Below are positions 16,906 to 53,798 of a DNA stretch of 64,000 nucleotides, piece after piece (positions within the stretch are counted from its first letter, which is position 1; each line of letters opens with the position of its first letter). The DNA lies in assembly GCA_029781115.1 (NCBI GenBank), contig JAKOXG010000017.1, positions 1-64,000 of the forward strand, written 5' to 3'. Below the pieces are notes generated by a model that saw nothing but the letters and a program-made list of their open reading frames with translations, had not been told where the DNA came from and did not search any database. A program made the translations under genes and the position numbers. Origin of the DNA: Candidatus Cloacimonadota bacterium. GTDB taxonomy: Bacteria > Cloacimonadota > Cloacimonadia > Cloacimonadales > Cloacimonadaceae.

Positions 16906-18651
16906 TCATAGAATTGTAAGCTTTCCTTCACAATTCTTGCGCCCGACTTTGAGGCGGATTTGGTAGACGCCGGAGGGTAATTTCCTGAGCAGCGACCAAC
17001 TGGGAAAAGGCAAGCATCCTTCCAGCTCTGACACGGTGCCGAGGTCGTAGCTGCCCAGTTTCTGCCCTTTTATATTGAAGAGCTCCAGCCTGGCAGGGCC
17101 GGAAAGACCTTCGGGGACATACCAGCGCAGCACCGCACCCGCTCTGTTGCGCACCGGATTGGGATGCGCCTGCAAGCTCAGCACAGCCTTGGGAGCTTCC
17201 AGCTCCAGCTCCAATGGGGAAGAGTTGTAGCCCCCGTGTCCCAACCTGACAATCTTGACTTGAGCATCGCCTTTGAGGGGTATCCGGATGCTGATCTGCT
17301 TTTGCATCCAAGCGACGTCATAATCGTAGGTAAGAATCTCATCATCATACTGCACAATGGCTTGCAGCGGCGTTACATCAGGATAATCCGGCAGTTCCAG
17401 CTTCACCACCACCGAGCCCAGGGAGTAGTTTGTGGAAACCAAAGTCGGCGGAAGCATTTGCAGATCTCCATCCCAGGGAAAGGCATGACAAAGCAGGCTG
17501 ATCCAGCGATACTGGGCAAAATCCAGCTTATAGTAATAAGTCCAGAATGCCTCAAAATACTGCCAATCCCAAGGCAACCACAGCGCCGCTCCACCCACAT
17601 CTGCTACATAGGTCAGGTTGTTTTTGCGCACGACCACATTCTCCCAGGCAGCCAGCACAGCCCGGGCATCGTTTTGCAGCTCCAGATCTGCCGTTCCCGT
17701 GCTTACCTTGCCAAAGAATTCATAGATATCCACATCGCAAAAGCCGTGATTCATCTCATGACACCCGAGCCTGAGGGCAAGCAGCTCAGATGCGCGGAAG
17801 CGATACTTGATGCTAAAGCTTTTCAGCTCTTGCAGGAAGGATTCAAAATCTTGCATCCTGATCGCCGAGCAGGTGACCGGAACGGGATACTGCCCCGGGT
17901 TTTGGCTGCCATAGAGATCGTAAGAAGCGATGTAAGCATCCACAATCTGGCTGCAGATGGCTTCAGGTGCGACATTGCCATCAAACCAAGCCATCATCTC
18001 CCGATAGGGAAAGCCCCGATAAGGCACCTCATCTTCAGAGCCGATCACATAGTCCGCCACGCTTTTGATCTCCGTAAGCACCTCCACACTCTGCATGCTA
18101 CAGGCATCCAGAATCAGGATGTCCAGATGCGGCAAACCCTGCAATGCAGCCTTGAACTGGCCATTGGAGACGTTGATCTGGCTCTGCTGTCCATCATCCG
18201 GACAGATCCACTTACTGCCCTGATCTTTGAACCAGTTATTGCCATGTCCCCAGATGACAAGCGCCTTCCTTTGCGATGGATAGCGCTTGAAACCCCAAGA
18301 GGCAAAATCGTAAAGAGTGCGAGGATCGCCACTATTGACAGGCCCCAGATTCTGGACTACGGGAGAAGTGATCTGCGGTGAATTGTCCGCTCTGATAAGC
18401 CGTCTTTGTCCGCCCGGATAAGGTGAATCTTCCGGCAGGTCGCTCTGCACCACCAGCTTGAGATTGGCCGGCAATGCGGCAGCTTCCATATCGTTGATGT
18501 TTTGGATGGCTGCTTCGCTGAGGTTGTTATCGCCGGCGATATAGACCAGCACCGTCCAGCTATCTGCCCCATTTGCATACAGGTGCAGGGCAAACAGGAA
18601 AAGCAGCCAAGCGATGATGCCTGGCTTGCTTTTCACACTAAAAGAAGGCAT
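16906..18651 (-). CDS. Secreted clostripain-type (C11) cysteine protease with C-terminal sorting domain
   Basis: The start is ATG 18651. The frame runs 83 codons further upstream into the kinase gene with low-complexity sequence that is not protein-like. The 581-aa product has a signal peptide (~1-27), WTVLVYIAGDNNLSEAA (the C11 opening block), catalytic His136 in WGHGNNW and Cys184 in LDACSM. Clostripains cleave after Arg or Lys. The last ~90 residues are a type IX-style tail (HPNPVRNRAG, LFNIKGQKLGSY, LPSGVYQIRLK). It is expected at the cell surface or outside, where it would release peptides for amino-acid fermentation. It lies 14 bases after buk. Confidence 0.85.
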   Translation of the reverse strand: MPSFSVKSKPGIIAWLLFLFALHLYANGADSWTVLVYIAGDNNLSEAAIQNINDMEAAALPANLKLVVQSDLPEDSPYPGGQRRLIRADNSPQITSPVVQNLGPVNSGDPRTLYDFASWGFKRYPSQRKALVIWGHGNNWFKDQGSKWICPDDGQQSQINVSNGQFKAALQGLPHLDILILDACSMQSVEVLTEIKSVADYVIGSEDEVPYRGFPYREMMAWFDGNVAPEAICSQIVDAYIASYDLYGSQNPGQYPVPVTCSAIRMQDFESFLQELKSFSIKYRFRASELLALRLGCHEMNHGFCDVDIYEFFGKVSTGTADLELQNDARAVLAAWENVVVRKNNLTYVADVGGAALWLPWDWQYFEAFWTYYYKLDFAQYRWISLLCHAFPWDGDLQMLPPTLVSTNYSLGSVVVKLELPDYPDVTPLQAIVQYDDEILTYDYDVAWMQKQISIRIPLKGDAQVKIVRLGHGGYNSSPLELELEAPKAVLSLQAHPNPVRNRAGAVLRWYVPEGLSGPARLELFNIKGQKLGSYDLGTVSELEGCLPFPSWSLLRKLPSGVYQIRLKVGRKNCEGKLTIL

Positions 18652-18665
18652 ATTCGGGATGAGGA

Positions 18666-19739
18666 TTAATAGTCTTGAGCTTCTTCCAAGCCTTCCAAGA
18701 CGCGCACGCCGCCCATGGCGAGTGCCTCCATCTCTTTTTCGCCGGGGAAGAGCTTGATGGGAGCGATGAATTCCACTCTTTCGCGCACTGTCTGCACGAT
18801 GAGATCGTTGTAGACCAAGCCACCGCTCATGCTGATGCAATCCACCTTGCCTTTGAGCACCGTAGCGCAGGCGCCGATCTCTTTGGCCACCTGATAGCAC
18901 ATGGCGTCTTGGATGAGCTTGGCTTTGGCGTCGCCAGCCTGGATGCGTCTGCTCACCTCGATGCCGTCATCTGTGCCCAGATAGGCCATCCAGCCGGCGG
19001 TTTTGCTGAGGTGATGAGTGAGCTCAGCCTTGGTATATTTACCGCTGTAGGCGAGGTCCAAGAGGTCGCCGATGGGTAGAGCACCGGCTCTTTGCGGCGA
19101 GAAGGAACCCATGCCCAAGAGGGCGTTGTTGACGTCCACGATGCGGCCATTCAGAATGGCTGCCACCGAGATGCCGCCACCCATATGCACACCGATCTGA
19201 TTGGTGTGTTCCAAGGGTTTGCCCAGTTCTTTGGCACACAATCTGGCGATATAGCGCAGATTCAGCGCATGCATCAGGGATTTGCGTTCGATCTCCGGAA
19301 TGCCGGAAATGCGGGCGATGTCGTCAAATTCATCTACCACCACCGGGTCTACGATAAAAGCGGGAATATTGAGTTCTTTGCTGATGGCGTCTGCGATAAA
19401 GGCACCCAGGTTTGAGGCGTGGATACGTCCCCAACGTGTTGGATCCTTCAAGTCCTCCAGCATCTGAGGCGTAATCTTCCAAGAGCCACCGGGAACCGGA
19501 CGCACCAATCCACCCCGACCCACCACACAATCCAGGCTGTCCAAAGGCACATTGTGCTTGGTCATGGCATTTAACACCAAATCTTTGCGAAATTCATACT
19601 GTTCGATGATTCCGGGGAAAGGAGCCAGCTCTTCCGGAGTGTGACGCAACACCTCTTCAAAGACCGGTGTCTCCGAATCATAAACGGCAATCTTTGTGGA
19701 TGTGGATCCAGGGTTGATAGCGAGAACGCGATAAGACAT
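18666..19739 (-). CDS. buk: Butyrate kinase
   Basis: The 357-aa ASKHA-fold kinase converts acyl-phosphate plus ADP to acid plus ATP, giving substrate-level ATP from butyryl- or a branched acyl-phosphate. The N-terminal NPGSTSTKIAVYD, the GRGGLVRPVPGG block and IGVHMGGGISVAAILNGR are typical of butyrate kinases, and the first separates it from acetate kinase. A phosphate acyltransferase (ptb) is not next to it. The ribosome binding site AAGGAGG is strong. It is transcribed ahead of the secreted protease. Confidence 0.93.
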   Translation of the reverse strand: MSYRVLAINPGSTSTKIAVYDSETPVFEEVLRHTPEELAPFPGIIEQYEFRKDLVLNAMTKHNVPLDSLDCVVGRGGLVRPVPGGSWKITPQMLEDLKDPTRWGRIHASNLGAFIADAISKELNIPAFIVDPVVVDEFDDIARISGIPEIERKSLMHALNLRYIARLCAKELGKPLEHTNQIGVHMGGGISVAAILNGRIVDVNNALLGMGSFSPQRAGALPIGDLLDLAYSGKYTKAELTHHLSKTAGWMAYLGTDDGIEVSRRIQAGDAKAKLIQDAMCYQVAKEIGACATVLKGKVDCISMSGGLVYNDLIVQTVRERVEFIAPIKLFPGEKEMEALAMGGVRVLEGLEEAQDY

Positions 19740-20075: not shown

Positions 20076-21857
20076 TCAGTGTTTATGAGTTGCTTCCTTC
20101 ACCACTTTTCCGGTATTTACGTTACGCTCGAAATAGAAGGTGTGAAGCAGCTTGAGAGCTTTCGGGGAAAGAGGTTCTCCCAGGAACTCTTTATAGACTT
20201 TCTGCACTTCGGGGTTGTGATGTGATTTGCGAACGGGCAGCTCTCTATCTTCTTTGTAAAGAGCCTGGCCTCTGCGTGCTCTGTCAGCGATGTCGTTTCC
20301 GAAGGGTTGTCCACCGCCGCCCACGCAACCACCGGGGCAAGCCATGATTTCGATGAAGTGCCAGGGAGATTCGCCTGTGGTGGTCAAACCTTCACGCACC
20401 TGATCCATCACCTTGCGGGCGTTGGAGAGACCGTGAGCCACAGCCACTTTCAGATCGCCAAATCCGGGGATGGGAACAGTGGCTTGTTTCACGCCATCCA
20501 GACCGCGCACTGCTTCAATATCTATGTTTTCCAGCTCTTCGCCAGTTACCAGGGTGTAGGCAGAGCGGATAGCGGCTTCCATCACGCCACCGGTAGCACC
20601 AAAGATGGTTCCGGCGCCGGTGTAGAAGCTCATTCCTTCATCTGCATCTTCTTCCGGGATGTTGGCAAAGTCGATGCCGGCTTCCTTGATCATGCGGATA
20701 AATTCACGTGTGGTGAGCACGTAGTCTGTATCCTGGAATCCGGAATCTCTGAGCTCGGGACGTCTGGCCTCAAACTTCTTTGCGGTGCAGGGCATGATCG
20801 CCACGCTCACGATCTTGGCGGGGTCGATGTTGTTCTGCTCGGCATAATAGGTCTTGGACAGCGCACCAAACATGCTCATGGGTGATTTTGCCGTGGAGAC
20901 ACAATCTGCCAGATCAGGGTAATATGTTTCCATAAATTTGATCCAGCCGGGCGAGCAGGAGGTGATGAGGGGGCGTTTGCTGCCGGATTTGAGTTTGGCA
21001 ACGCATTCGCTTCCTTCTTCCATGATGGTGAGGTCAGCGGTGAAGTTTGTATCCATCACGCTATCGAAGCCGATCTTACGCAGAGCGGCATACATCTTCT
21101 TGGGAGTCACAGAGCCCATCGGCATGCCAAATTCGTCGCCCAAAGAGGCGCGGATGGCGGGTGCTTCCTGCACGATCACGTGCTTTTCGGGATCCAGAAT
21201 AGCTTCCCAGACTGCGTTTACTTCGCTGTTTTCACGCAGGGCACCGGTAGGGCAGTAAACTGTGCATTGACCGCAGTTTACACAGGCGCTGTTGCCTATT
21301 CCATGCTCGAAAGCCACGGATGGATAGGATTCAAAGCCGCGCTCGGTCATGGTGAGGGCATAGACGGTCTGTGTTTCGTTACAGACGGTGATGCATCTGC
21401 CGCAACCTATGCACTTGTTTGGGTCTCTGATGATTGAGGGAGAGCTGTCATCTATAGGTTTCTTTTCCAACAGGGTTGGCAGGGCGTTAGCTTCGATGCC
21501 CAGGTTGTTTGCCAAGGACTGAAGCTCGCATTTGTTGTTTGCCGCACAGGTGGGGCAGACAACCTCGTGGTTTGAGAGTATCATTTCCACCAGGGTTCTT
21601 CTGTAGGCACGCAGTTTTTTGCTATTGGTGGTGATCTTCATCCCTTCTTCGCAAGGCGTGCTGCAGGCACGTTTGGGGACGGGCATTCTCTCGATTTCGA
21701 CCACACAGACGCCGCAGTTGGCGGTGGGTGGAAGATCCGGATGGTAGCACAAACGGGGGATGTAAAAGCCGTGTTTATCGGCGGCTTGTATGATGGTCAT
21801 CCCTTCCGGAACTTCCAGTTGGTGACCATCGATCCAGACGTTGACTGTTTTAGCCAT
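20076..21857 (-). CDS. hydA: [FeFe]-hydrogenase catalytic subunit of an NADH-linked trimeric enzyme
   Basis: This subunit makes or consumes H2, probably by electron confurcation from NADH and reduced ferredoxin together with HydB and HydC. The 593-aa order is: N-terminal [2Fe-2S] plant-type domain (Cys37, 48, 51, 65), a His-Cys3 [4Fe-4S] segment (HEVVCPTCAANNKC), two [4Fe-4S] motifs (CIGCGRCITVC, CVNCGQCTVYCPTG), then H-cluster motifs TSCSPGW, MPCTAKKFE and MACPGGCVGGGG. All cluster ligands are present. It is the last gene of hydC-hydB-hydA. Such enzymes let fermenters dispose of electrons as H2, typical of syntrophic Cloacimonadota. The bifurcating mode is inferred from the gene set. Confidence 0.95.
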   Translation of the reverse strand: MAKTVNVWIDGHQLEVPEGMTIIQAADKHGFYIPRLCYHPDLPPTANCGVCVVEIERMPVPKRACSTPCEEGMKITTNSKKLRAYRRTLVEMILSNHEVVCPTCAANNKCELQSLANNLGIEANALPTLLEKKPIDDSSPSIIRDPNKCIGCGRCITVCNETQTVYALTMTERGFESYPSVAFEHGIGNSACVNCGQCTVYCPTGALRENSEVNAVWEAILDPEKHVIVQEAPAIRASLGDEFGMPMGSVTPKKMYAALRKIGFDSVMDTNFTADLTIMEEGSECVAKLKSGSKRPLITSCSPGWIKFMETYYPDLADCVSTAKSPMSMFGALSKTYYAEQNNIDPAKIVSVAIMPCTAKKFEARRPELRDSGFQDTDYVLTTREFIRMIKEAGIDFANIPEEDADEGMSFYTGAGTIFGATGGVMEAAIRSAYTLVTGEELENIDIEAVRGLDGVKQATVPIPGFGDLKVAVAHGLSNARKVMDQVREGLTTTGESPWHFIEIMACPGGCVGGGGQPFGNDIADRARRGQALYKEDRELPVRKSHHNPEVQKVYKEFLGEPLSPKALKLLHTFYFERNVNTGKVVKEATHKH

Positions 21858-22003
21858 AATTATCTTTCCTTTTTTATCTTACTTTTTTATTATATCTTTC
21901 ACAGCACTGCGGGAGAGCGACCCATATCTCATCCAAGACTCGATTCAGGTCGTTCCAAGCAGGCTGATACCCAGAGAATATCTCTTTGTACATTCAATTT
22001 CCC

Positions 22004-23857
22004 TTAGAAAGGCTCACCAGGTTTGCGCACGGCGGCGCGACCTTTTTTACCGGTTAAGTCTTCATGGACTCCAGGAATTTTATCAATGGCTTTCACAGGG
22101 CAGACGTCAAAGCAGTTGCCGCATTTGATGCATTCAACCTGATTGATGGTGTATTTCTCTTCTTTTGAACCGCTGATGCAACCTGTGGGGCACTTGCGTG
22201 AGCAGAGTGAGCAGCCGATGCATTTGTCCTTATCGATCTCAAAGTGCATCAGATCGAGGCAGACGTTGGCCTTACAGGTCTTGTCACGGATGTGGGATTC
22301 ATATTCATCGCGGAAATAGCGGATGGTGGAAAGCACGGGGTTGGGAGCGGTTTGACCGAGGCCGCAGAGTGAGAGATTGCGCACGGTTTCTCCCAAGCGC
22401 AACAGCTCTTCGATATCTCCTTCTTTGCCTTTGCCAGAGGTGATGCGTTCCATGATGTGGAGCATCTGCTTGAGTCCGATACGGCAGGGAGAGCATTTTC
22501 CGCAGGATTCTTCCACGCAAAATTCGATGAAGAACTTGGCCACGTTGACCATGCACTTACGCTCGTCCATCACGATCACGCCACCGGAACCCATCATGGC
22601 TCCGCGGGCTTTGAGGCTTTCATAGTCCACGCCCACGTCAAGGTGTTCGGCGGTCAAGCAGCCACCGGAGGGGCCGCCCAGTTGCACGGCTTTAAACTTG
22701 CGATCATCGATGATGCCGCCACCCACTTCAAAGATCAATTCTTTGAGGGTGGTGCCCATGGGCACTTCCACGAGACCGGTATTGCGCACATCACCTGTGA
22801 GGGCAAACACTTTGGTTCCCTTGGAGGTCTCGGTTCCCATGCCGGCAAACCAATCAGCTCCCTTCACAAAGATGCTGGGAATATTGGCAAAAGTTTCCAC
22901 GTTGTTCACCACGGTGGGTTTGCCCCAGAGGCCTTGCACGGCGGGATAAGGAGGCTTGGGTGTGGGGTTTCCACGCTCGCCTTCGACGGAGTGGATGAGA
23001 GCCATCTCTTCACCGCACACAAAAGCTCCGGCTCCGGTGCGCACTTCAGCTTCAAAGCAGAAGTCTGTGCCAAAAATGTTCTTACCAATCATGCCCTTGC
23101 TGCGGGCTTGTTCGATCGCCTGGCGGATGCGTTTGATAGCCAGGGGATATTCGGCACGGATGTAGAAGAAACCTTGGCTGGCTCCGATGCTGTAGGCAGC
23201 GATCATCATGCCTTCCAGCACCCTGTGCGGATCGCCTTCCAATACGGAACGATCCATGAAAGCACCGGGGTCACCTTCGTCACCGTTGCAGATGATATAC
23301 TTTTCTTCTTCCGGTCTGTCGTGCACCATCTGCCATTTTCTGTAGGTGGGGAATCCGGCACCGCCGCGTCCTCTCAAACCGGAGGCTTTGACGACGTCGA
23401 TGGCACCCTGGGAACCCATCTTGAGCGCCATTTCCAGAGCCTTATAACCGCCGCGGGCGATGTATTCTTCCATGCTTTCGGGGTCGATCTCGCCGCAGTT
23501 TTCCAGTGCCACTTTGATCTGCTTATTGTAAAAGGGCACTTCTTCTTTCATCTTGATAGTCTTCTCATCATCCTGCACCAAAAGACGTTCCACGATGCGT
23601 CCATTGATGATGTGCTCTTCCACGATCTCGTTGACGTCTTCGATTGCCACGTTTTTGTAGAAGATTCCTTCGGGATTAACCACTAAAAGCGGCCCAAAGG
23701 AGCAAGGCCCCATACAGCCGGTTCCGATGATGTTGACTTCGTTTGTCAGCTCTTTTTCATCGATTGCTTTTTGTAAAGCTTCTTTGAGTTTCAAGGCACC
23801 TGCTGAGATGCAGCTTGAGCCGCAGCAAACCAGCAGATCTATTCTTTTAAGAGACAT
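22004..23857 (-). CDS. hydB: NuoF-like flavin/iron-sulfur subunit of the NADH-linked hydrogenase
   Basis: The start is ATG 23857, 6 bases behind AAGGAGG. The ATG at 23863 abuts that site and is too close. The 617-aa protein has an N-terminal thioredoxin-like [2Fe-2S] domain (CCGSSCISAG, GTGCMGPCSFGP), the NuoF core with the FMN/NADH site (GRGGAGFPTYRKW, GDEGDPGAFMDRS), a [4Fe-4S] site (CGKCSPCRIG) and a C-terminal two-cluster ferredoxin domain (CIGCSLCSRKC, CIKCGNCFDVC). It oxidises or reduces NAD(H) and is the expected bifurcation site. A 146-base gap with no recognisable feature separates it from hydA. Confidence 0.95.
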   Translation of the reverse strand: MSLKRIDLLVCCGSSCISAGALKLKEALQKAIDEKELTNEVNIIGTGCMGPCSFGPLLVVNPEGIFYKNVAIEDVNEIVEEHIINGRIVERLLVQDDEKTIKMKEEVPFYNKQIKVALENCGEIDPESMEEYIARGGYKALEMALKMGSQGAIDVVKASGLRGRGGAGFPTYRKWQMVHDRPEEEKYIICNGDEGDPGAFMDRSVLEGDPHRVLEGMMIAAYSIGASQGFFYIRAEYPLAIKRIRQAIEQARSKGMIGKNIFGTDFCFEAEVRTGAGAFVCGEEMALIHSVEGERGNPTPKPPYPAVQGLWGKPTVVNNVETFANIPSIFVKGADWFAGMGTETSKGTKVFALTGDVRNTGLVEVPMGTTLKELIFEVGGGIIDDRKFKAVQLGGPSGGCLTAEHLDVGVDYESLKARGAMMGSGGVIVMDERKCMVNVAKFFIEFCVEESCGKCSPCRIGLKQMLHIMERITSGKGKEGDIEELLRLGETVRNLSLCGLGQTAPNPVLSTIRYFRDEYESHIRDKTCKANVCLDLMHFEIDKDKCIGCSLCSRKCPTGCISGSKEEKYTINQVECIKCGNCFDVCPVKAIDKIPGVHEDLTGKKGRAAVRKPGEPF

Positions 23858-23871
23858 TGTCATCCTCCTTC

Positions 23872-23991
23872 CTAATTACCTTTCGCCGCTAAATATTCAG
23901 AGACGATTTTGATTCGTGTATCTGACCCGCGCAGCTTCATCTCTTCCTTCGCTTTGTCGCGGATCTCCTTAAGGTCGGCAAGTGTCTTCAT
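23872..23991 (-). CDS. 39-residue remnant of a hydrogenase-associated [2Fe-2S] ferredoxin (HndB-like N-terminus)
   Basis: ATG 23991 has GGAGG 7 bases before it, and the frame ends at TAG 23872, just before the hydB ribosome binding site. The sequence (MKTLADLKEIRDKAKEEMKL ... TRIKIV) matches the start of the small thioredoxin-like ferredoxins usually encoded between hydC and hydB. It stops where the first cysteine-containing segment (VGMATCG-type) would begin. No cysteine is left, so it cannot bind a cluster. It may be a decayed gene or a retained helix peptide that docks to the complex. The intact reading frame and ribosome binding site favour translation. Confidence 0.6.
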   Translation of the reverse strand: MKTLADLKEIRDKAKEEMKLRGSDTRIKIVSEYLAAKGN

Positions 23992-24088
23992 CAGACAACC
24001 TCCATGTTTGTATTTTTTAAATTACTTCGTTTTAAAGCGTGATCGGTGTATTTGATCACATTGGGACAAATCTTGCATGCGTGCCAGC

Positions 24089-24568
24089 TTATTTATACTG
24101 GGCTAAGACTTTCTCTACCTGGTCTTTGGTCTCAACGCGGCCAAAGGTGTCCTCGCCGATCACAAACACCGGAGCAAGCGAACATGCTCCCACGCAGCGA
24201 ACTGCGCTCAGAGTGAAACGACCATCTTCGGTGGTCTCACCCATGGGGGTATCCAAAACGTCCGAAATCATCTGAGCCAACTTGGGCGCACCTTTCACAT
24301 AGCAGGCGGTGCCCATGCAAATGTTGAGGGTGTATTTGCCACGTGGCTTCATGGAGAAGAAGTTGTAAAAGGTAACCACTCCATAGATCTTGCTCACCGG
24401 GATATTCATCTCGGCAGCGATAAACTCTTGTACCTCGATGGGTAGATAGCCAAAGATCTCTTGAGCAATGCGGAGAATCTCAATCAGGGGATTGCGAAGA
24501 TTTTTCCTCTCTTCAATTACTTCTCTGAGCCTTTGGTAAGGTTGCTTTAACTGGGTATCGGGAGACAT
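24089..24568 (-). CDS. hydC: NuoE-like [2Fe-2S] subunit of the NADH-linked hydrogenase
   Basis: The start is ATG 24568, preceded by AAGGAGGAGTG. A GTG just upstream overlaps the spacing. The 159-aa protein has the NuoE helical N-domain (LIEILRIAQEIFGYLP, VYGVVTFYNFF pattern) and a thioredoxin-like [2Fe-2S] domain with cysteines in CMGTACYVKG and CVGACSLAP. It passes electrons within HydABC. It is the first gene of the operon. Confidence 0.93.
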   Translation of the reverse strand: MSPDTQLKQPYQRLREVIEERKNLRNPLIEILRIAQEIFGYLPIEVQEFIAAEMNIPVSKIYGVVTFYNFFSMKPRGKYTLNICMGTACYVKGAPKLAQMISDVLDTPMGETTEDGRFTLSAVRCVGACSLAPVFVIGEDTFGRVETKDQVEKVLAQYK

Positions 24569-24833
24569 CACTCCTCCTTTCTATCATATTTTGTTCGTTC
24601 TTTTCGGTTGGGTTTTCGCCTTCAACGATCAAGAAACCAAGCTCGGAAATATCATCAATTTCGCCGATAACAGCTTGATCTTCCAAGCAATAAGGAGAGG
24701 ATATAAAAGCACACTTAGCCCTTGTGTCAAGCCCCAGACCAGGGTTCAGAAACTCGCCTTCTAAATTGGTTTTCTCGTCGTTTAAGATCATTCCTTCTAT
24801 ACCTATAATAGTAGTATAGTGACAGCCCAACAA

Positions 24834-26311: not shown

Positions 26312-26339
26312 TTGACAGCTTTGCGCATCAAATTATCAT
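26312..26339 (+). promoter_or_regulatory. Promoter of the riboswitch-controlled gene
   Basis: TTGACA (26312-26317), 16-base spacer, TATCAT (26334-26339). Transcription would begin near 26346, where the cobalamin aptamer starts. Confidence 0.55.
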
Positions 26340-26347
26340 GGCGTTCA

Positions 26348-26515
26348 AACAGTTGGTGCTACTAAATAGGTAAAAGGGAATCTCGTGCAAAGCGAGAGCG
26401 GTAACCGCCACTGTGAGCGACCATTGCAAGGCTTGGCCCTGTCACTGAGTTGACAATCGCTTGGGAAGGCAGGGTTATATACAGATAGCCGTCGCGAGCC
26501 AGGAAACCTGCCACC
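26348..26515 (+). ncRNA. Cobalamin (AdoCbl-type) riboswitch
   Basis: The conserved blocks occur in the right order: GGTGCTACTAAATAGG lead, TAAAAGGGAA, GAGCGGT, CCGCCACTGT (the B12 box region), a P6-type stem AGCGA/TCGCT, GGGAAGGC, and the terminal AGCCAGGAAACCTGCC. A hairpin with outer stem GCTTTC/GAAAGC and inner GCCATA/TGTGGC follows (26520-26558) and could act as expression platform. AAGGAG and ATG 26603 come next. B12 binding normally lowers expression of the downstream gene. Confidence 0.9.
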
Positions 26516-26602
26516 GGAAGCTTTCTGATGCCATACGGTTTTATGTGGCTGAAAGCAAAGTAGTTCCCTCGAAAAAACCAATATTCAAGGAGAACTAAAG
26601 TC

Positions 26603-27841
26603 ATGACAAACAAAAGACTTTTCCTCACGTTGCTGGGCTTGTTTTTGATGTTTCAGCTCAGCGCAGCACTTATTTATGTGGTGAATTCTGGATCCCGCAC
26701 CCTCTCGCGGATCGACACCGAAACCAATGAAGTCAACAACAGCTTTGCCCAATTGGGCATCACCGCCAATACAATGGCAATCGATGAGGATCACATCTGG
26801 GTGGTCTGCAGCGGTGACAACGCCATTTTGGAGCTCGACCGCCATACCGGCGCTCAAATCCGTTACATGGAAGTGGAGGCCTCATCAAATCCTTACGACG
26901 TGCTCAAAATCGGCGAATACCTTTATGTGACCGGTCTTTTCTCGGATAAGGTCTACAAGATCAGCCTTGCAGATGGCAATGTGGCCGCATTTCTGGATGT
27001 GCCCGTCTCACCACAGGGCTTGGCCACCGACGGAGAATACCTCTATGTGGCCGTTACAGGAGGTTATCACATGAACTATGCGGATTCACGCGTCTGTGTG
27101 ATCAACCTGAGCGATTTTACCATCGAGACCAGTATTAATGTGTGGACAAACCCCCAATTTGTCGTTGTTCATAATGGCAAACTGCACGTCTCCTCCGCGG
27201 GAAATTGGCAAAACATCACTGGAAAGGTGCAAATCATCGACATCCCCAGTTGGGAGATCGAAGCCACGGTGGAATTGGGCGGACAACCCGGCTCCCTCTG
27301 GATCGCAAACGATGAGAGAGCACTGGTGGGAGATGCCTATGGAGCGGGCTTCTATATGTATATGGCAGATACTTATCAGATACTGAATGGCTATGGCAAC
27401 CTCATGCAACCGGGAGGCTATGTTGTTGATGGAACCGATAATGAGATTGCCGTGCTCCAGTATATCTATGAGCAAGACTGCATAGTCTATCTGCTGAACT
27501 ATGACCTCAGCATCAAGACACAATACAGCACAGCTATTTCGAGCTCAGACCTCAAGTTTTACACATCACCCACCAGCAATGACGACCTGGTTCTGCAACC
27601 CAAACTCAACGTGTATCCCAATCCTGTTGTGAAAAACGGAGTGCTGAACTTTGAGAGTGAGAGCAAATCACCCATGAAGGTGAGCCTCTACGACATCAGG
27701 GGACGCAAGGTGTTGGAAACCCAGAGCCTGGGCGGGAATGTGTCGCTGGATCTGGCCGGTAAAGCTTTGAGCTCCGGCATGTATCTGTATAAAATTCAGC
27801 AAAGAGACAGGATCAAGACAGGCAAGATTATCGCCATGTAA
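26603..27841 (+). CDS. Secreted YVTN-type beta-propeller with C-terminal sorting domain; candidate surface cobalamin-binding protein (BtuG-like)
   Basis: The 412-aa protein has a signal peptide (~1-22). About seven propeller-type repeats follow (IYVVNSGSRTLSRIDTET, DEDHIWVVCSGDNAILELD, IGEYLYVTGLFSDKVYKI, DGEYLYVAVTG and so on, ~23-330). A type IX-style tail closes it (YPNPVVKNGVLNFES, LYDIRGRKVLETQ, LSSGMYLYKI). The cobalamin riboswitch immediately upstream ties it to B12. In Bacteroides the B12-binding surface protein BtuG is also a beta-propeller under cobalamin control, so a capture role is the best inference. It is not a lipoprotein, unlike BtuG. The ribosome binding site is AAGGAG. No btuB is in the window. 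Confidence 0.75.
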   Translation: MTNKRLFLTLLGLFLMFQLSAALIYVVNSGSRTLSRIDTETNEVNNSFAQLGITANTMAIDEDHIWVVCSGDNAILELDRHTGAQIRYMEVEASSNPYDVLKIGEYLYVTGLFSDKVYKISLADGNVAAFLDVPVSPQGLATDGEYLYVAVTGGYHMNYADSRVCVINLSDFTIETSINVWTNPQFVVVHNGKLHVSSAGNWQNITGKVQIIDIPSWEIEATVELGGQPGSLWIANDERALVGDAYGAGFYMYMADTYQILNGYGNLMQPGGYVVDGTDNEIAVLQYIYEQDCIVYLLNYDLSIKTQYSTAISSSDLKFYTSPTSNDDLVLQPKLNVYPNPVVKNGVLNFESESKSPMKVSLYDIRGRKVLETQSLGGNVSLDLAGKALSSGMYLYKIQQRDRIKTGKIIAM

Positions 27842-28100: not shown

Positions 28101-29591
28101 ATGAAAGCAATATTTACTATCGATGTGGAAGACTATTTCCACACTGTGGAAGGAGAAAACGTTCCCACGCTCAAAGATTGGGATTCACTGGAACACCGGG
28201 TGGTGAAAGACACTCAGAAACTCCTGGATATTTTGGATGACTATGGTGTGCATGCCACCTTTTTCATCCTGGGTTATGTGGCTCAACATCATCCCGAACT
28301 GGTCAAGGAGATCAGCGCCCGAGGTCATGAGGTGGCTTCGCATGGAATGTATCACAAAAATGTTTCCCAGATGACCCGTGAAGAGTTTGCCCAGGATGTG
28401 GCCTCCTGCAAAGCCCTGCTTGAAGACATCTGCGGTCAGGAAGTTATCGGCTACCGCAGCCCGGGCTTCTCGCATTCGGAAGACCTCTCCTGGATGATGG
28501 ATGTGCTCTATGATCAGGGCTTCAGGTTCGATTCATCCGTCTTCCCCGGCCTCAGGTTTGATAGTGGAATCGAGAGTGATGAGCTCAATCCGCATTGGAT
28601 CGAAACCACCAACGGCCGCATCTTTGAGATTCCCATCTCCGTCACACCCGTAGCAGGCAAGAATATCTGCTTCTTTGGGGGCGGCTATTTGAGGCTGTTT
28701 CCACAATGGCTGATCCTGAAGATGGTCGAGAGGCTGAAGAGTCAGCATCAGACACCGCTTTTCTACATCCATCCCCGAGAGATAGACCCCCAGCACCCCC
28801 GCTTCAAGATGAAGCCGGTAAACTACTTCCGCTCCTATGTCAATCTGGACACCGTGGAGAGCAAGATCCGCGCCATCCTCTCGCAAAACAGCTTTGTAAC
28901 CTGCGGGGAATATATGCGTTTGTTTGAAACGGACAGGGAAAAGCTCTTTATGGAGGACAAGACGGCCGGCTTTTTCGATGGTTATGCCTCCGGATTTGAC
29001 TCCATCTATGGCTCCAAAAACAATGCCTTCTGGCGCTTTATCAACAAGCATTTCCGCAAAGCCATGCTCTATAGATTTCAAGAAGTAATCAACTCCTGCG
29101 ATGCAGGCGAAGATAAAACGGCTCTGGACGTGGGCTGCGGACCGGGACAATATATGGTAGCCCTGGCTCAGAAAGGCCTCGCGCACATTCACGGCTTGGA
29201 TTTTGCGCCCCTGATGATTGACTTAGCCAAGGAAAACGTAGCCAAAGCGCAGGTGCAGGATAGATGCAGCTTTGAGGTGGGCGACTTTTTGACCTACAAG
29301 GATGACAAGCAATACAACTACGTGATCTGCATGGGATTTATGGACTATATCAAGGAGCCTGAGTTGGTGATCAACAAGGCTTTGGAGCTGGCTTCGGAGA
29401 AGGCAATGTTCAGTTTCCCCAAGTCTGGCGGTCTCTTGGCTGCTCAGAGACAGCTCAGATACAAGTTCAAGTGTCCCCTATACTTATACAGCGACGCCCA
29501 GGTGCACAAGCTCTTCGGCAACCGTCCCGGCTGGAAATACATCTTCAAGGATTGTGACCGGGATTTCTTTGTGACTATGCAGCGTTTGTAA
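28101..29591 (+). CDS. Polysaccharide deacetylase fused to a SAM-dependent methyltransferase
   Basis: This is a single 496-aa frame with two enzyme domains. Residues ~1-270 are a NodB-type deacetylase of the XrtA/DUF3473 group: TIDVEDYFH at the start, HATFFILGYVA, GHEVASHGMYH (metal-binding His pair), GYRSPGFSH and the FYIHPREIDP block. Residues ~295-496 form a class I methyltransferase with motif I ALDVGCGPGQYMVAL (~340-354) and a following GLDFAPLMIDLA. Together they could deacetylate and methylate one extracellular or lipid-linked glycan. The ribosome binding site is AGGAG. The gene is monocistronic. There is no frameshift at the joint, around residue 290. Confidence 0.8.
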   Translation: MKAIFTIDVEDYFHTVEGENVPTLKDWDSLEHRVVKDTQKLLDILDDYGVHATFFILGYVAQHHPELVKEISARGHEVASHGMYHKNVSQMTREEFAQDVASCKALLEDICGQEVIGYRSPGFSHSEDLSWMMDVLYDQGFRFDSSVFPGLRFDSGIESDELNPHWIETTNGRIFEIPISVTPVAGKNICFFGGGYLRLFPQWLILKMVERLKSQHQTPLFYIHPREIDPQHPRFKMKPVNYFRSYVNLDTVESKIRAILSQNSFVTCGEYMRLFETDREKLFMEDKTAGFFDGYASGFDSIYGSKNNAFWRFINKHFRKAMLYRFQEVINSCDAGEDKTALDVGCGPGQYMVALAQKGLAHIHGLDFAPLMIDLAKENVAKAQVQDRCSFEVGDFLTYKDDKQYNYVICMGFMDYIKEPELVINKALELASEKAMFSFPKSGGLLAAQRQLRYKFKCPLYLYSDAQVHKLFGNRPGWKYIFKDCDRDFFVTMQRL

Positions 29592-51378: not shown

Positions 51379-52037
51379 AACTGCAGACTATCCTCTTTAT
51401 CCTCATGTTGTTAGCTGCCTTGGCGGTCACAGCGTTCAACTTTCTGCCCCAATCCATCTGGCAGAGGGCAGCATTAACGCCGGAACCTCCTGTAACAGTG
51501 GTAGATAGCCTGGAGCAACCCACCGAGCCTGAAATCCCGGCAGAGAGAGCCGAGCCGCCCTTGCAACCGCCTCAGCAAAGGGAAACCACCAACGCTGAGC
51601 TGCTGCGGCGAGACCGGGACCTCTCCCCCTTCACCATCGAGGTGAGTAAAAGCAGCTATCAACTGCGGCTTTTTCAGGGTGATTCGCTGGTAACCAGCTA
51701 CAGCGTGGCATTGGGAAATGAGCGGGCTGACAAGCTGGCTAAGGACGACCCCATCACGCCTTTGGGCAATTTCTACATCGTGAGCATAGAAAACACCTCC
51801 CTGCGCCATCCTGAGGAAGGCCCCTGGTTTATTCGCTTGCACACGGGTCATTTCGACACCGCCAGCGGCAGAGCCTTCAGCGGCATCGGCATCAAAGGTG
51901 GAGCTGCGCCCCGAGAGCTGGGCAAAAGCCTCCACACAGACTGTATCATCATGCAAAACAAAGACATAATAGATTTGAAAGGACACATACAATATGACTA
52001 CAAACAAGTTCGCCTGCCGGTTATCATCCGGCCTTAA
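51375..52037 (+). CDS. YkuD/L,D-transpeptidase-like protein with altered active site
   Basis: The 220-aa protein has an N-terminal membrane anchor (~5-25), a proline-rich spacer and a YkuD-type domain (FTIEVSKSSYQLRLFQGDSLV, VALGNERADKLAKDDPITPLGNFYIV). L,D-transpeptidases cross-link peptidoglycan or attach lipoproteins. At the catalytic site the usual HG..SHGC motif reads IKGG...SLHTDC: the Cys remains, but the catalytic His is Lys and the SHG triad is changed. It may be inactive or use another arrangement. Its start overlaps the lipoprotein gene (ATGA). Confidence 0.6.
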   Translation: MKLQTILFILMLLAALAVTAFNFLPQSIWQRAALTPEPPVTVVDSLEQPTEPEIPAERAEPPLQPPQQRETTNAELLRRDRDLSPFTIEVSKSSYQLRLFQGDSLVTSYSVALGNERADKLAKDDPITPLGNFYIVSIENTSLRHPEEGPWFIRLHTGHFDTASGRAFSGIGIKGGAAPRELGKSLHTDCIIMQNKDIIDLKGHIQYDYKQVRLPVIIRP

Positions 52038-52884
52038 AACCCTTCTGATCATAGCGAGTATCGCCATGTTAATGCTCATCAGCTCCTGCAAACCCAAAGA
52101 GACTCCCAAGGAAGAGCGCTATGTGGTGCTTTCTCCGGAAGTGGCGGAAATCATGGCCGCACTGAATCTTACAGACAAAATCGTGGGTCTCACCGCCGAG
52201 TGCAATTACCCGGCTGAACTTGCCTCCATCCCCAAGGTAGGCCGGTTTGGCGCAGTCCGCAAGGAAGCGATGCTCAAGCTGGAGCCAACTGTCGTGTTTG
52301 TGGCCGGCCTGGAACAGGAGGCTATCGCGGAAGAGCTGGAGAAGCTAAACATCAAGGTGGTAACCGTTTACCCTCAATCCATAGATGAATTGTATGCCGC
52401 CATCACCAATATCGGCCAGATCACCGGCACGCAGCAACGCGCCAAAACGCTGATCGAGGAGCTGAAAGCCGCAATCGCCGCCATCCAAAGAAAGACAGAC
52501 AAGCTCATCAAACCCAGGGTTTACCTGGAAATCAACCGCGATCCCCTGATGAGTGTTTCCGATGAATCCTTCGTGGGGCGAATTCTCGAACTTGCAGGCG
52601 GAGACAACATCTTCCCCACCCTCGAACGTGAATATGCCCGTGTGAAGCCCGAAGACGTGATCAACGCTGCGCCGGACATCATTATCTGCTACTCGCGCGA
52701 CAGCATAAGCAACATCATCAACCGCAAGGGCTGGCAAGATATCCCCGCCATCAAAAACGGATATATCTACACCCACAAAGACGTCGATCCGGACATCATC
52801 CTCAGAGCCGGACCACGTATCCACTTAGGCCTCAAAAGGTTGCAAGACCTCTACTTGGCTTGGGAGAAAGACCAAAGACCATGA
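51994..52884 (+). CDS. ABC transporter substrate-binding lipoprotein (BtuF/FepB type)
   Basis: The 296-aa protein has a lipobox LISSC (Cys32) and the class III binding-protein fold: VVLSPEVAEIMAALNL, DKIVGLTAECNYPAELASIPKVG, LEPTVVFVAG, an inter-lobe helix, PRVYLEINRDPLMSV and GPRIHLGLKRL. The ECNYPAEL..PKVG segment is typical of cobalamin/iron-complex binders. The ligand could be B12, haem or a siderophore. It overlaps the upstream gene by 44 bases and the permease gene by 4. Confidence 0.75.
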   Translation: MTTNKFACRLSSGLKTLLIIASIAMLMLISSCKPKETPKEERYVVLSPEVAEIMAALNLTDKIVGLTAECNYPAELASIPKVGRFGAVRKEAMLKLEPTVVFVAGLEQEAIAEELEKLNIKVVTVYPQSIDELYAAITNIGQITGTQQRAKTLIEELKAAIAAIQRKTDKLIKPRVYLEINRDPLMSVSDESFVGRILELAGGDNIFPTLEREYARVKPEDVINAAPDIIICYSRDSISNIINRKGWQDIPAIKNGYIYTHKDVDPDIILRAGPRIHLGLKRLQDLYLAWEKDQRP

Positions 52885-53798
52885 AAACCTTTAGGCTGAT
52901 CCTGCTCGTAATAGCAGCTATCGGCATGGGTATCATATACTTAACCTGGGGAAGTCCATCACATTTGATCCTGACTCAGGTGAGGCTCCCGCGCCTCCTG
53001 CTCACCGTGCTTACCGGCATGATTTTGGGCGGCGTGGGCAGCGTCTATCAACTGATGCTAAGTAACCCCCTGGCAGAGCCTTACATCTTGGGCATCTCGT
53101 CCGGTTCTGCCTTCGGATCCATCCTCATGGGCGTGCTGGGACTCAGCCTGCTTATGCCCGTGGGAGGCTTTGCCGGTGCGATGGTGACCATGTTTTTGGT
53201 GTGGGGCTTAGCCGGTAGAAAGGGGAGCTTTGATCGCAGCAGATTGCTGATCGGAGGCGTGATCACGGGAATGTTTTTTGCTGCGGGAATCTCGCTGCTC
53301 ATGTATCTCTTTCTCAAGGATACCGTGATCATCATGGGCACTTTGATGGGCAATCTGGGGCGCATCTTCACCGTCGGGGAGTATCGTGTCTTTTTGGCTC
53401 TGGGAGGCGTGTCTTTGCTGCTCCTCTTCTGGCTTTACAGCCAAAGCAGCACCCTGGACATCATGAGCGGAAGCGACCTCTACGCCGGCTCCGTGGGCAT
53501 CAAAGTGAGCAGCCTGCGCAAGCGCATCTTTGTGCTCAGCTCAATCCTGATCGGCATCACGGTGGCCTATGCGGGGATCATCGGCTTTGTGGGGCTCATC
53601 GTGCCGCATATCGCCAGATACTACGTGGGGCCCTCCCAAAAGAAAGTCTATCCCCTGAGCCTCTTTATCGGCGCTTTCTTCCTGCTCGCCTGCGATTTCG
53701 TCGCCCAAAATATCACCGTGCTGGAACTCCCCGTGGGCGTGATCACCTCCGCCATCGGCTGCCCCTTCTTCATGTGGCTGATGCTGAAAAAGAGCTGA
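52881..53798 (+). CDS. FecCD/BtuC-type ABC transporter permease
   Basis: The start is ATG 52881 (ATGA overlap with the binding-protein stop). A TTG 21 bases upstream is not needed. The 305-aa protein has 9-10 membrane helices and the family blocks LPRLLLTVLTGMILGGVGSVYQ, NPLAEPYILGISSGSAFG and YAGIIGFVGLIVPHIAR. It would pair with the upstream binding lipoprotein for cobalamin or an iron complex. No ATPase gene follows. The next 400 bases hold element copy C. The ATPase must be supplied from elsewhere. Confidence 0.85.
   Translation: MKTFRLILLVIAAIGMGIIYLTWGSPSHLILTQVRLPRLLLTVLTGMILGGVGSVYQLMLSNPLAEPYILGISSGSAFGSILMGVLGLSLLMPVGGFAGAMVTMFLVWGLAGRKGSFDRSRLLIGGVITGMFFAAGISLLMYLFLKDTVIIMGTLMGNLGRIFTVGEYRVFLALGGVSLLLLFWLYSQSSTLDIMSGSDLYAGSVGIKVSSLRKRIFVLSSILIGITVAYAGIIGFVGLIVPHIARYYVGPSQKKVYPLSLFIGAFFLLACDFVAQNITVLELPVGVITSAIGCPFFMWLMLKKS

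Follow-up and report, generated by a model that had tools for sequence, protein, structure and literature searches.

We propose that a gene in a 64,000-nucleotide stretch of Cloacimonadota DNA (hereafter the window, meaning the whole stretch analysed) encodes a BtuG-like β-propeller that would capture corrinoids as a partner of BtuB, would be exported by the type IX secretion system (T9SS) and would be repressed by vitamin B12; we put the probability of this reading at roughly 0.78. Corrinoid binding, a complex with BtuB, surface location and the direction of the switch are inferred in it. What we computed is a cobalamin riboswitch, a hairpin over the ribosome-binding site, a T9SS tail together with T9SS core proteins, a fold relationship to BtuG, a linkage to BtuB-like and BtuFCD genes, the presence of AdoCbl enzymes and the absence of CbiC. 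The features of the window on which the argument draws are as follows.

26312–26339, plus strand: sigma-70-type promoter-like sequence TTGACA-16-TATCAT, matching 11 of 12 consensus positions
26337–26529, plus strand: cobalamin riboswitch aptamer (RF00174), by covariance model, 81.4 bits (gathering score 31.5)
26530–26549, plus strand: hairpin GCCATACGGTTTTATGTGGC 3' of the aptamer, its contact with the L5 region predicted by complementarity only
26561–26597, plus strand: predicted hairpin sequestering the ribosome-binding site, by folding (z −2.2)
26587–26592, plus strand: ribosome-binding site AAGGAG, 5' of the propeller open reading frame and inside the preceding hairpin
26603–27841, plus strand: open reading frame with ATG start for the 412-residue BtuG-like secreted propeller with T9SS tail
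26603–26665, plus strand: signal peptide, residues 1–21, without lipobox, by inspection
26666–27577, plus strand: β-propeller domain, about residues 22–325, by AlphaFold2 model and Foldseek
27611–27832, plus strand: Por_Secre_tail / TIGR04183 sorting domain, residues 337–410, above curated cut-offs
51994–52884, plus strand: BtuF-like substrate-binding protein, a probable downstream partner, with no riboswitch before the gene
52860–53798, plus strand: BtuC-like FecCD permease, best NCBIfam model BtuC, below cut-off

The sequence-only reading of this DNA had named a cobalamin riboswitch and had offered the Rfam covariance model as the check on it, which the element passes with a full-length match (model positions 1–189, E 1.7e-18). 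It is the sole copy in a genome of 2.25 Mb that is 99% complete, and it lies 74 nt 5' of the propeller gene. The promoter of that reading, said to end where the aptamer starts, is also there and is the best of five candidates in the region, with the aptamer starting at its end; a match to consensus alone is weak evidence. The hairpin immediately 3' of the aptamer has the loop CGGTT, and the L5 region holds its complement AACCG (GGTAACCG, 26400–26407), which resembles the L5–L13 kissing loop that is a known feature of the cobalamin riboswitch class, the pairing in the window being only predicted from complementarity.

Downstream of these elements the leader holds an expression platform able to hide the ribosome-binding site. 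We folded, as single sequences, the leaders of 14 riboswitch-led homologues and those of four riboswitch-less homologues as controls. A hairpin covering the ribosome-binding site is present in all 14, frequently in the form GTTCAxCC...GGTGAAC, with mean paired probabilities of 0.57–1.0, while the four controls gave 0.08, 0.09, 0.46 (locus L049) and 0.81 (locus L058). We infer that the riboswitch controls translation and is OFF with B12 bound; neither cobalamin binding nor the switch direction has been shown. In four near-complete genomes of one genus (G001, G003, G004 and G009, with loci L058, L049, L050 and L052) the propeller is kept and the cobalamin riboswitch is absent, and two of these four propeller leaders lack the hairpin over the ribosome-binding site.

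All that the sequence-only reading had seen is found where it had been placed. The encoded protein has the architecture that had been read from the sequence, a signal-peptide propeller with a Por-type tail: residues 337–410 score 43.3 bits against Pfam PF18962 (cut-off 27) and 51 bits against TIGR04183 (cut-off 23), and the N-terminus, MTNKRLFLTLLGLFLMFQLSA, appears by inspection to be an ordinary signal peptide in which the cysteine of a lipobox is missing. The propeller carries a net charge of −25 over residues 22–330; for BtuG2, a charge of −18e is reported, with cobalamin drawn in electrostatically (PMC10404256). Compared with two congeners, dN/dS is about 0.19–0.22, with propeller and tail both constrained, and we conclude from this that the gene is under purifying selection. 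No second propeller of the same family was found in the window genome, and none of the viral contigs that we searched yielded a relative.

An AlphaFold2 model built on an alignment of 41 homologues is an all-β propeller with a mean pLDDT of 93.6 and a pTM of 0.77. The structural comparison with BtuG that had been suggested for this protein comes out in favour of the likeness, as BtuG1, BtuG2 and BtuG3 account for 16 of the top 17 matches in a Foldseek search of the PDB (ranks 2–17, many with cobalamin bound); their target-normalised TM-scores are mostly 0.74–0.81 and the rmsd is about 3 Å for most, against TM-scores of only 0.67–0.68 and an rmsd above 10 Å for E. coli YncE. Rank 1 is held by 1L0Q, an archaeal (Methanosarcina) YVTN S-layer propeller, which also leads a profile search of PDB sequences (4e-29, compared with 6e-22 to 3e-15 for BtuG and 3e-5 for YncE). 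Since 1L0Q scores at least as well as BtuG, part of the signal is generic to YVTN proteins. Identity to BtuG in the structural alignments is low, at about 17%, the residues of the BtuG2 pocket could not be mapped one by one, the shared conserved columns of the alignment being unassigned to it, and there are no binding data; these points limit the BtuG-like reading. Also weighing against it are changes at five near-invariant positions in the window's own copy, a receptor that scores under the NCBIfam BtuB cut-offs and is encoded on a different contig with no riboswitch, and relatives in which the propeller gene lacks a riboswitch. Membership in BtuG proper was tested and rejected because the lipobox is absent, and we therefore write BtuG-like. 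All indirect evidence is that the propeller works like BtuG, with binding inferred only.

Among 125 genomes of the phylum, 106 contain the propeller and 101 a cobalamin riboswitch. Within the window's family, 36 of the 45 propeller-bearing genomes have the riboswitch 71–148 nt upstream of the propeller gene, and three more have it farther upstream on the same strand. For one site placed at random, the probability of landing in the correct orientation no more than 400 nt before a particular gene is about 9e-5, and because the arrangement recurs across the phylum we do not regard it as accidental. In 41 of 46 propeller-bearing genomes from other families of the same order, and in 11 of 12 from sister families, the gene immediately before that of the propeller encodes a BtuB-like TonB receptor. 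Where contigs are long, the full order is riboswitch, BtuF-like, BtuC-like, (divergent Rrf2, NifS, NifU), BtuD-like ATPase, BtuB-like receptor, propeller. In some genomes (loci L072, L073, L102) receptor and propeller are each preceded by a riboswitch of their own. The divergent trio of Rrf2 regulator, NifS and NifU occurs within the btu locus or next to it across the phylum (L062, L063, L066, L067, L091, L092, L103, L104). On the other side of the propeller gene in the window, 28101–29591 encodes an XrtA-type polysaccharide deacetylase (TIGR03006 just under cut-off) fused to a SAM-dependent methyltransferase; a role for the propeller in polysaccharide metabolism by way of this downstream deacetylase gene was rejected, given the 260-nt gap and a synteny restricted to the genus.

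A profile of the propeller alone, with the tail removed, was run on 296 Bacteroidota genomes and matched in 90 of them at 1e-15 or better. We examined 20 of these loci, mainly the top scorers and long frames likely to bear a tail, and a cobalamin riboswitch was present in every one, nearly always directly before a TonB receptor and the propeller. As the propeller profile contains no riboswitch information, we take this result as an independent check. Several of the loci adjoin a B12-dependent ribonucleotide reductase, and NrdJ was confirmed by model in one of them (L192). Eleven negative-control loci had been intended, of which L205 and L208 were removed as being themselves BtuG-type loci; none of the remaining nine, which are weaker, generic propeller matches, has a cobalamin riboswitch. 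Approached from BtuG instead, in genomes whose BtuG was found with the BtuG1 sequence, the best match of the Cloacimonadota-type profile was that same BtuG in 12 of 15, and in the other three it was a paralogue that follows a TonB receptor or lies within a receptor locus.

Of the Bacteroidota relatives, 13 carry a T9SS tail without a lipobox, 40 a lipobox without a tail, and 10 carry neither; the lipobox was scored by a simple pattern, and some of the last group are visibly lipoproteins. As far as sequence motifs can tell, tail and lipobox are thus mutually exclusive among these relatives. Four Bacteroidota loci (L186, L188, L190, L191) hold a lipoprotein BtuG beside a T9SS-tailed propeller in one riboswitch locus, and there the two delivery routes may be working together. 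In a phylogenetic tree, the sequences from the window's phylum cluster together with a support of 90, and this cluster adjoins T9SS-tailed Bacteroidota sequences. The tree comes from a quick search only and has several long branches, and which sequences are truly sister to the Cloacimonadota-type clade is uncertain.

In the window genome the btu parts are dispersed. A BtuB-like receptor and a BtuD-like ATPase are encoded at the end of contig C7, separate from the contig of the propeller, and the receptor, a partner that the sequence-only reading had not mentioned, has no riboswitch of its own; it matches BtuB1 best in the PDB and TonB-B12 best among NCBIfam models, where it falls under the cut-off, as it does under the NCBIfam cut-offs for BtuB. 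The BtuC-like permease is the sole FecCD protein in the genome. It and the BtuF-like protein are encoded by overlapping genes (51994–53798) 24 kb downstream of the propeller, with no riboswitch. Two AdoCbl enzymes, methylmalonyl-CoA mutase and lysine 5,6-aminomutase (its β subunit), are also encoded in the genome, whereas CbiC was not found in any of 21 genomes searched (the window's own and 20 relatives), with control genomes proving that the search works. From the AdoCbl enzymes and the lack of CbiC we conclude that cobalamin is required by the organism, which very probably makes no corrin ring. Elsewhere in the window, three minus-strand genes at 20076–24571 look like those for a trimeric NADH-dependent [FeFe]-hydrogenase of the HydABC type, as reported for Cloacimonadota. 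This hydrogenase, together with a T9SS and an FCB-type lineage, led us to infer Cloacimonadota as the phylum.

Published work has proposed that Cloacimonadota possess a T9SS (PMC11285876), and in this genome the core components SprA (contig C14) and PorU (contig C7) are both found above cut-off. With the core encoded and the lipobox lacking, the T9SS is most likely the export route of the propeller, although export and surface location remain inferences; delivery by a sorting domain in place of lipidation, as earlier surmised, is thus supported. A further observation is a clostripain-family (C11) peptidase encoded on the minus strand at 16906–18900, with a C-terminus that looks, to the eye, like a T9SS tail, and with no such domain detected by Pfam.

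Taken together, we hypothesize the following course of events. The signal peptide would take the propeller across the inner membrane, and the T9SS would recognise the C-terminal sorting domain and carry the protein across the outer membrane. At the surface, the acidic face of the propeller may bind cobalamin or other corrinoids and pass them to the BtuB-like TonB-dependent receptor, after which BtuF and BtuCD would carry them inward. With plentiful B12 inside the cell, the riboswitch would bind it and the hairpin would hide the ribosome-binding site, such that the protein would be made only when B12 is scarce. A variant that we regard as possible, though doubtful, has the propeller of the window's family uncoupled from the receptor both genetically and physically, and acting, once released by the T9SS or loosely bound to the surface, as a diffusible corrinoid scavenger in the manner of a siderophore and not as a fixed lid on BtuB.

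Other explanations dispense with capture by the propeller altogether. The protein might be a generic YVTN surface propeller, be it an adhesin, an S-layer component or a scaffold, that is under B12 control and binds no corrinoid, and the standing of 1L0Q as top match in both sequence and fold, along with the common and functionally loose nature of the YVTN repeat, is what commends such a view. We think it unlikely, as only BtuG structures occupy the 16 fold ranks that follow, the same profile leads to riboswitch–BtuB–propeller loci in a second phylum (with the riboswitch in 20 of 20 examined), the cobalamin riboswitch occurs in none of the nine weaker-match propeller loci, and the linkage to BtuB is seen across the sister lineages.

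Nor do we see much room for a purely structural lid or docking partner that gates the BtuB-like receptor and leaves ligand binding to it, even though BtuG2 does cap BtuB2 as a lid (PMC10404256) and the BtuB–propeller gene order is conserved: all BtuG proteins studied bind cobalamin (PMC6143338, PMC12751083), the propeller is strongly acidic, like BtuG2, and in the window's family the riboswitch usually stays with the propeller and not with the receptor, an indication that regulation acts on capture. It is harder still to credit that the gene is a remnant, left with its riboswitch and losing its function here after an ancestral btu locus broke up. An open reading frame, signal peptide, tail, promoter and ribosome-binding-site hairpin that are all intact, a dN/dS of about 0.2 and a single-gene arrangement common to most of the family speak against decay, and outweigh, in our judgement, the encoding of the receptor and BtuFC elsewhere in the genome and the departure of the window's copy from the family at five near-invariant positions (Q76L, G134P, C198S, T199A, N292D). 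We therefore retain the T9SS-exported, BtuG-like capture protein as the best explanation.

Published work confines BtuG to Bacteroidetes and assigns it a conserved lipobox cysteine (PMC6143338), and in the open-access literature that we searched we found no paper joining the T9SS and BtuG-type proteins and no description of B12 uptake in Cloacimonadota. What is new is a BtuG-like protein outside Bacteroidota that bears a T9SS tail, the published BtuG being only a Bacteroidetes lipoprotein. The suggestion that this may be a new B12-capture protein outside Bacteroidetes thus holds as regards the host, which, judged by how the searched genomes are grouped, does not belong to Bacteroidota, but the sorting-domain route extends beyond the window's phylum, since T9SS-tailed relatives were found in cobalamin-riboswitch loci of several Bacteroidota. 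If the BtuG-like reading is true, capture of the BtuG type extends over two or more FCB-group phyla with two interchangeable routes to the surface, and the T9SS delivers part of a vitamin-uptake system, which we did not find among its roles in the literature searched. Cloacimonadota are thought to oxidise propionate syntrophically in digesters by way of a mutase step (PMC13082233, with B12 unmentioned in the text searched). Given the lack of CbiC and the dependence of the mutase on B12, corrinoid capture would be a testable dependency of syntrophic propionate oxidation.

Among known systems, T9SS type A cargo (TIGR04183/PF18962) shares with the window protein an N-terminal signal peptide, a sorting domain above cut-offs and a host with SprA and PorU, yet the cargo described in the literature searched includes no partner of BtuB under the control of a B12 riboswitch. 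The B12-binding lipoproteins DUF4465 and BtuH/BtuJ (PMC13398666, PMC8941943, PMC12751083) have in common with it accessory B12 capture and riboswitch loci, but they are not propellers, have unrelated folds and are lipid-anchored in Bacteroides. YncE (3VGZ) and 1L0Q are, like it, seven-bladed propellers of the YVTN type; YncE is clearly farther than BtuG from the window protein in both sequence profile and fold, and the weaker-match control loci that serve for this comparison have neither a cobalamin riboswitch nor linkage to a receptor. BtuG1, BtuG2 and BtuG3 of Bacteroides thetaiotaomicron (PMC6143338, PMC10404256) share the seven-bladed propeller, riboswitch control, acidity and partner BtuFCD genes, and a position beside the gene for a BtuB-like TonB receptor is shared only by relatives of the window genome. 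The two differ in phylum, with low sequence identity between them, and in how they are delivered: BtuG is a lipoprotein with a lipobox and LES, whereas the window protein combines a plain signal peptide with a T9SS C-terminal domain, and its gene is a single riboswitch-led unit situated away from btuB.
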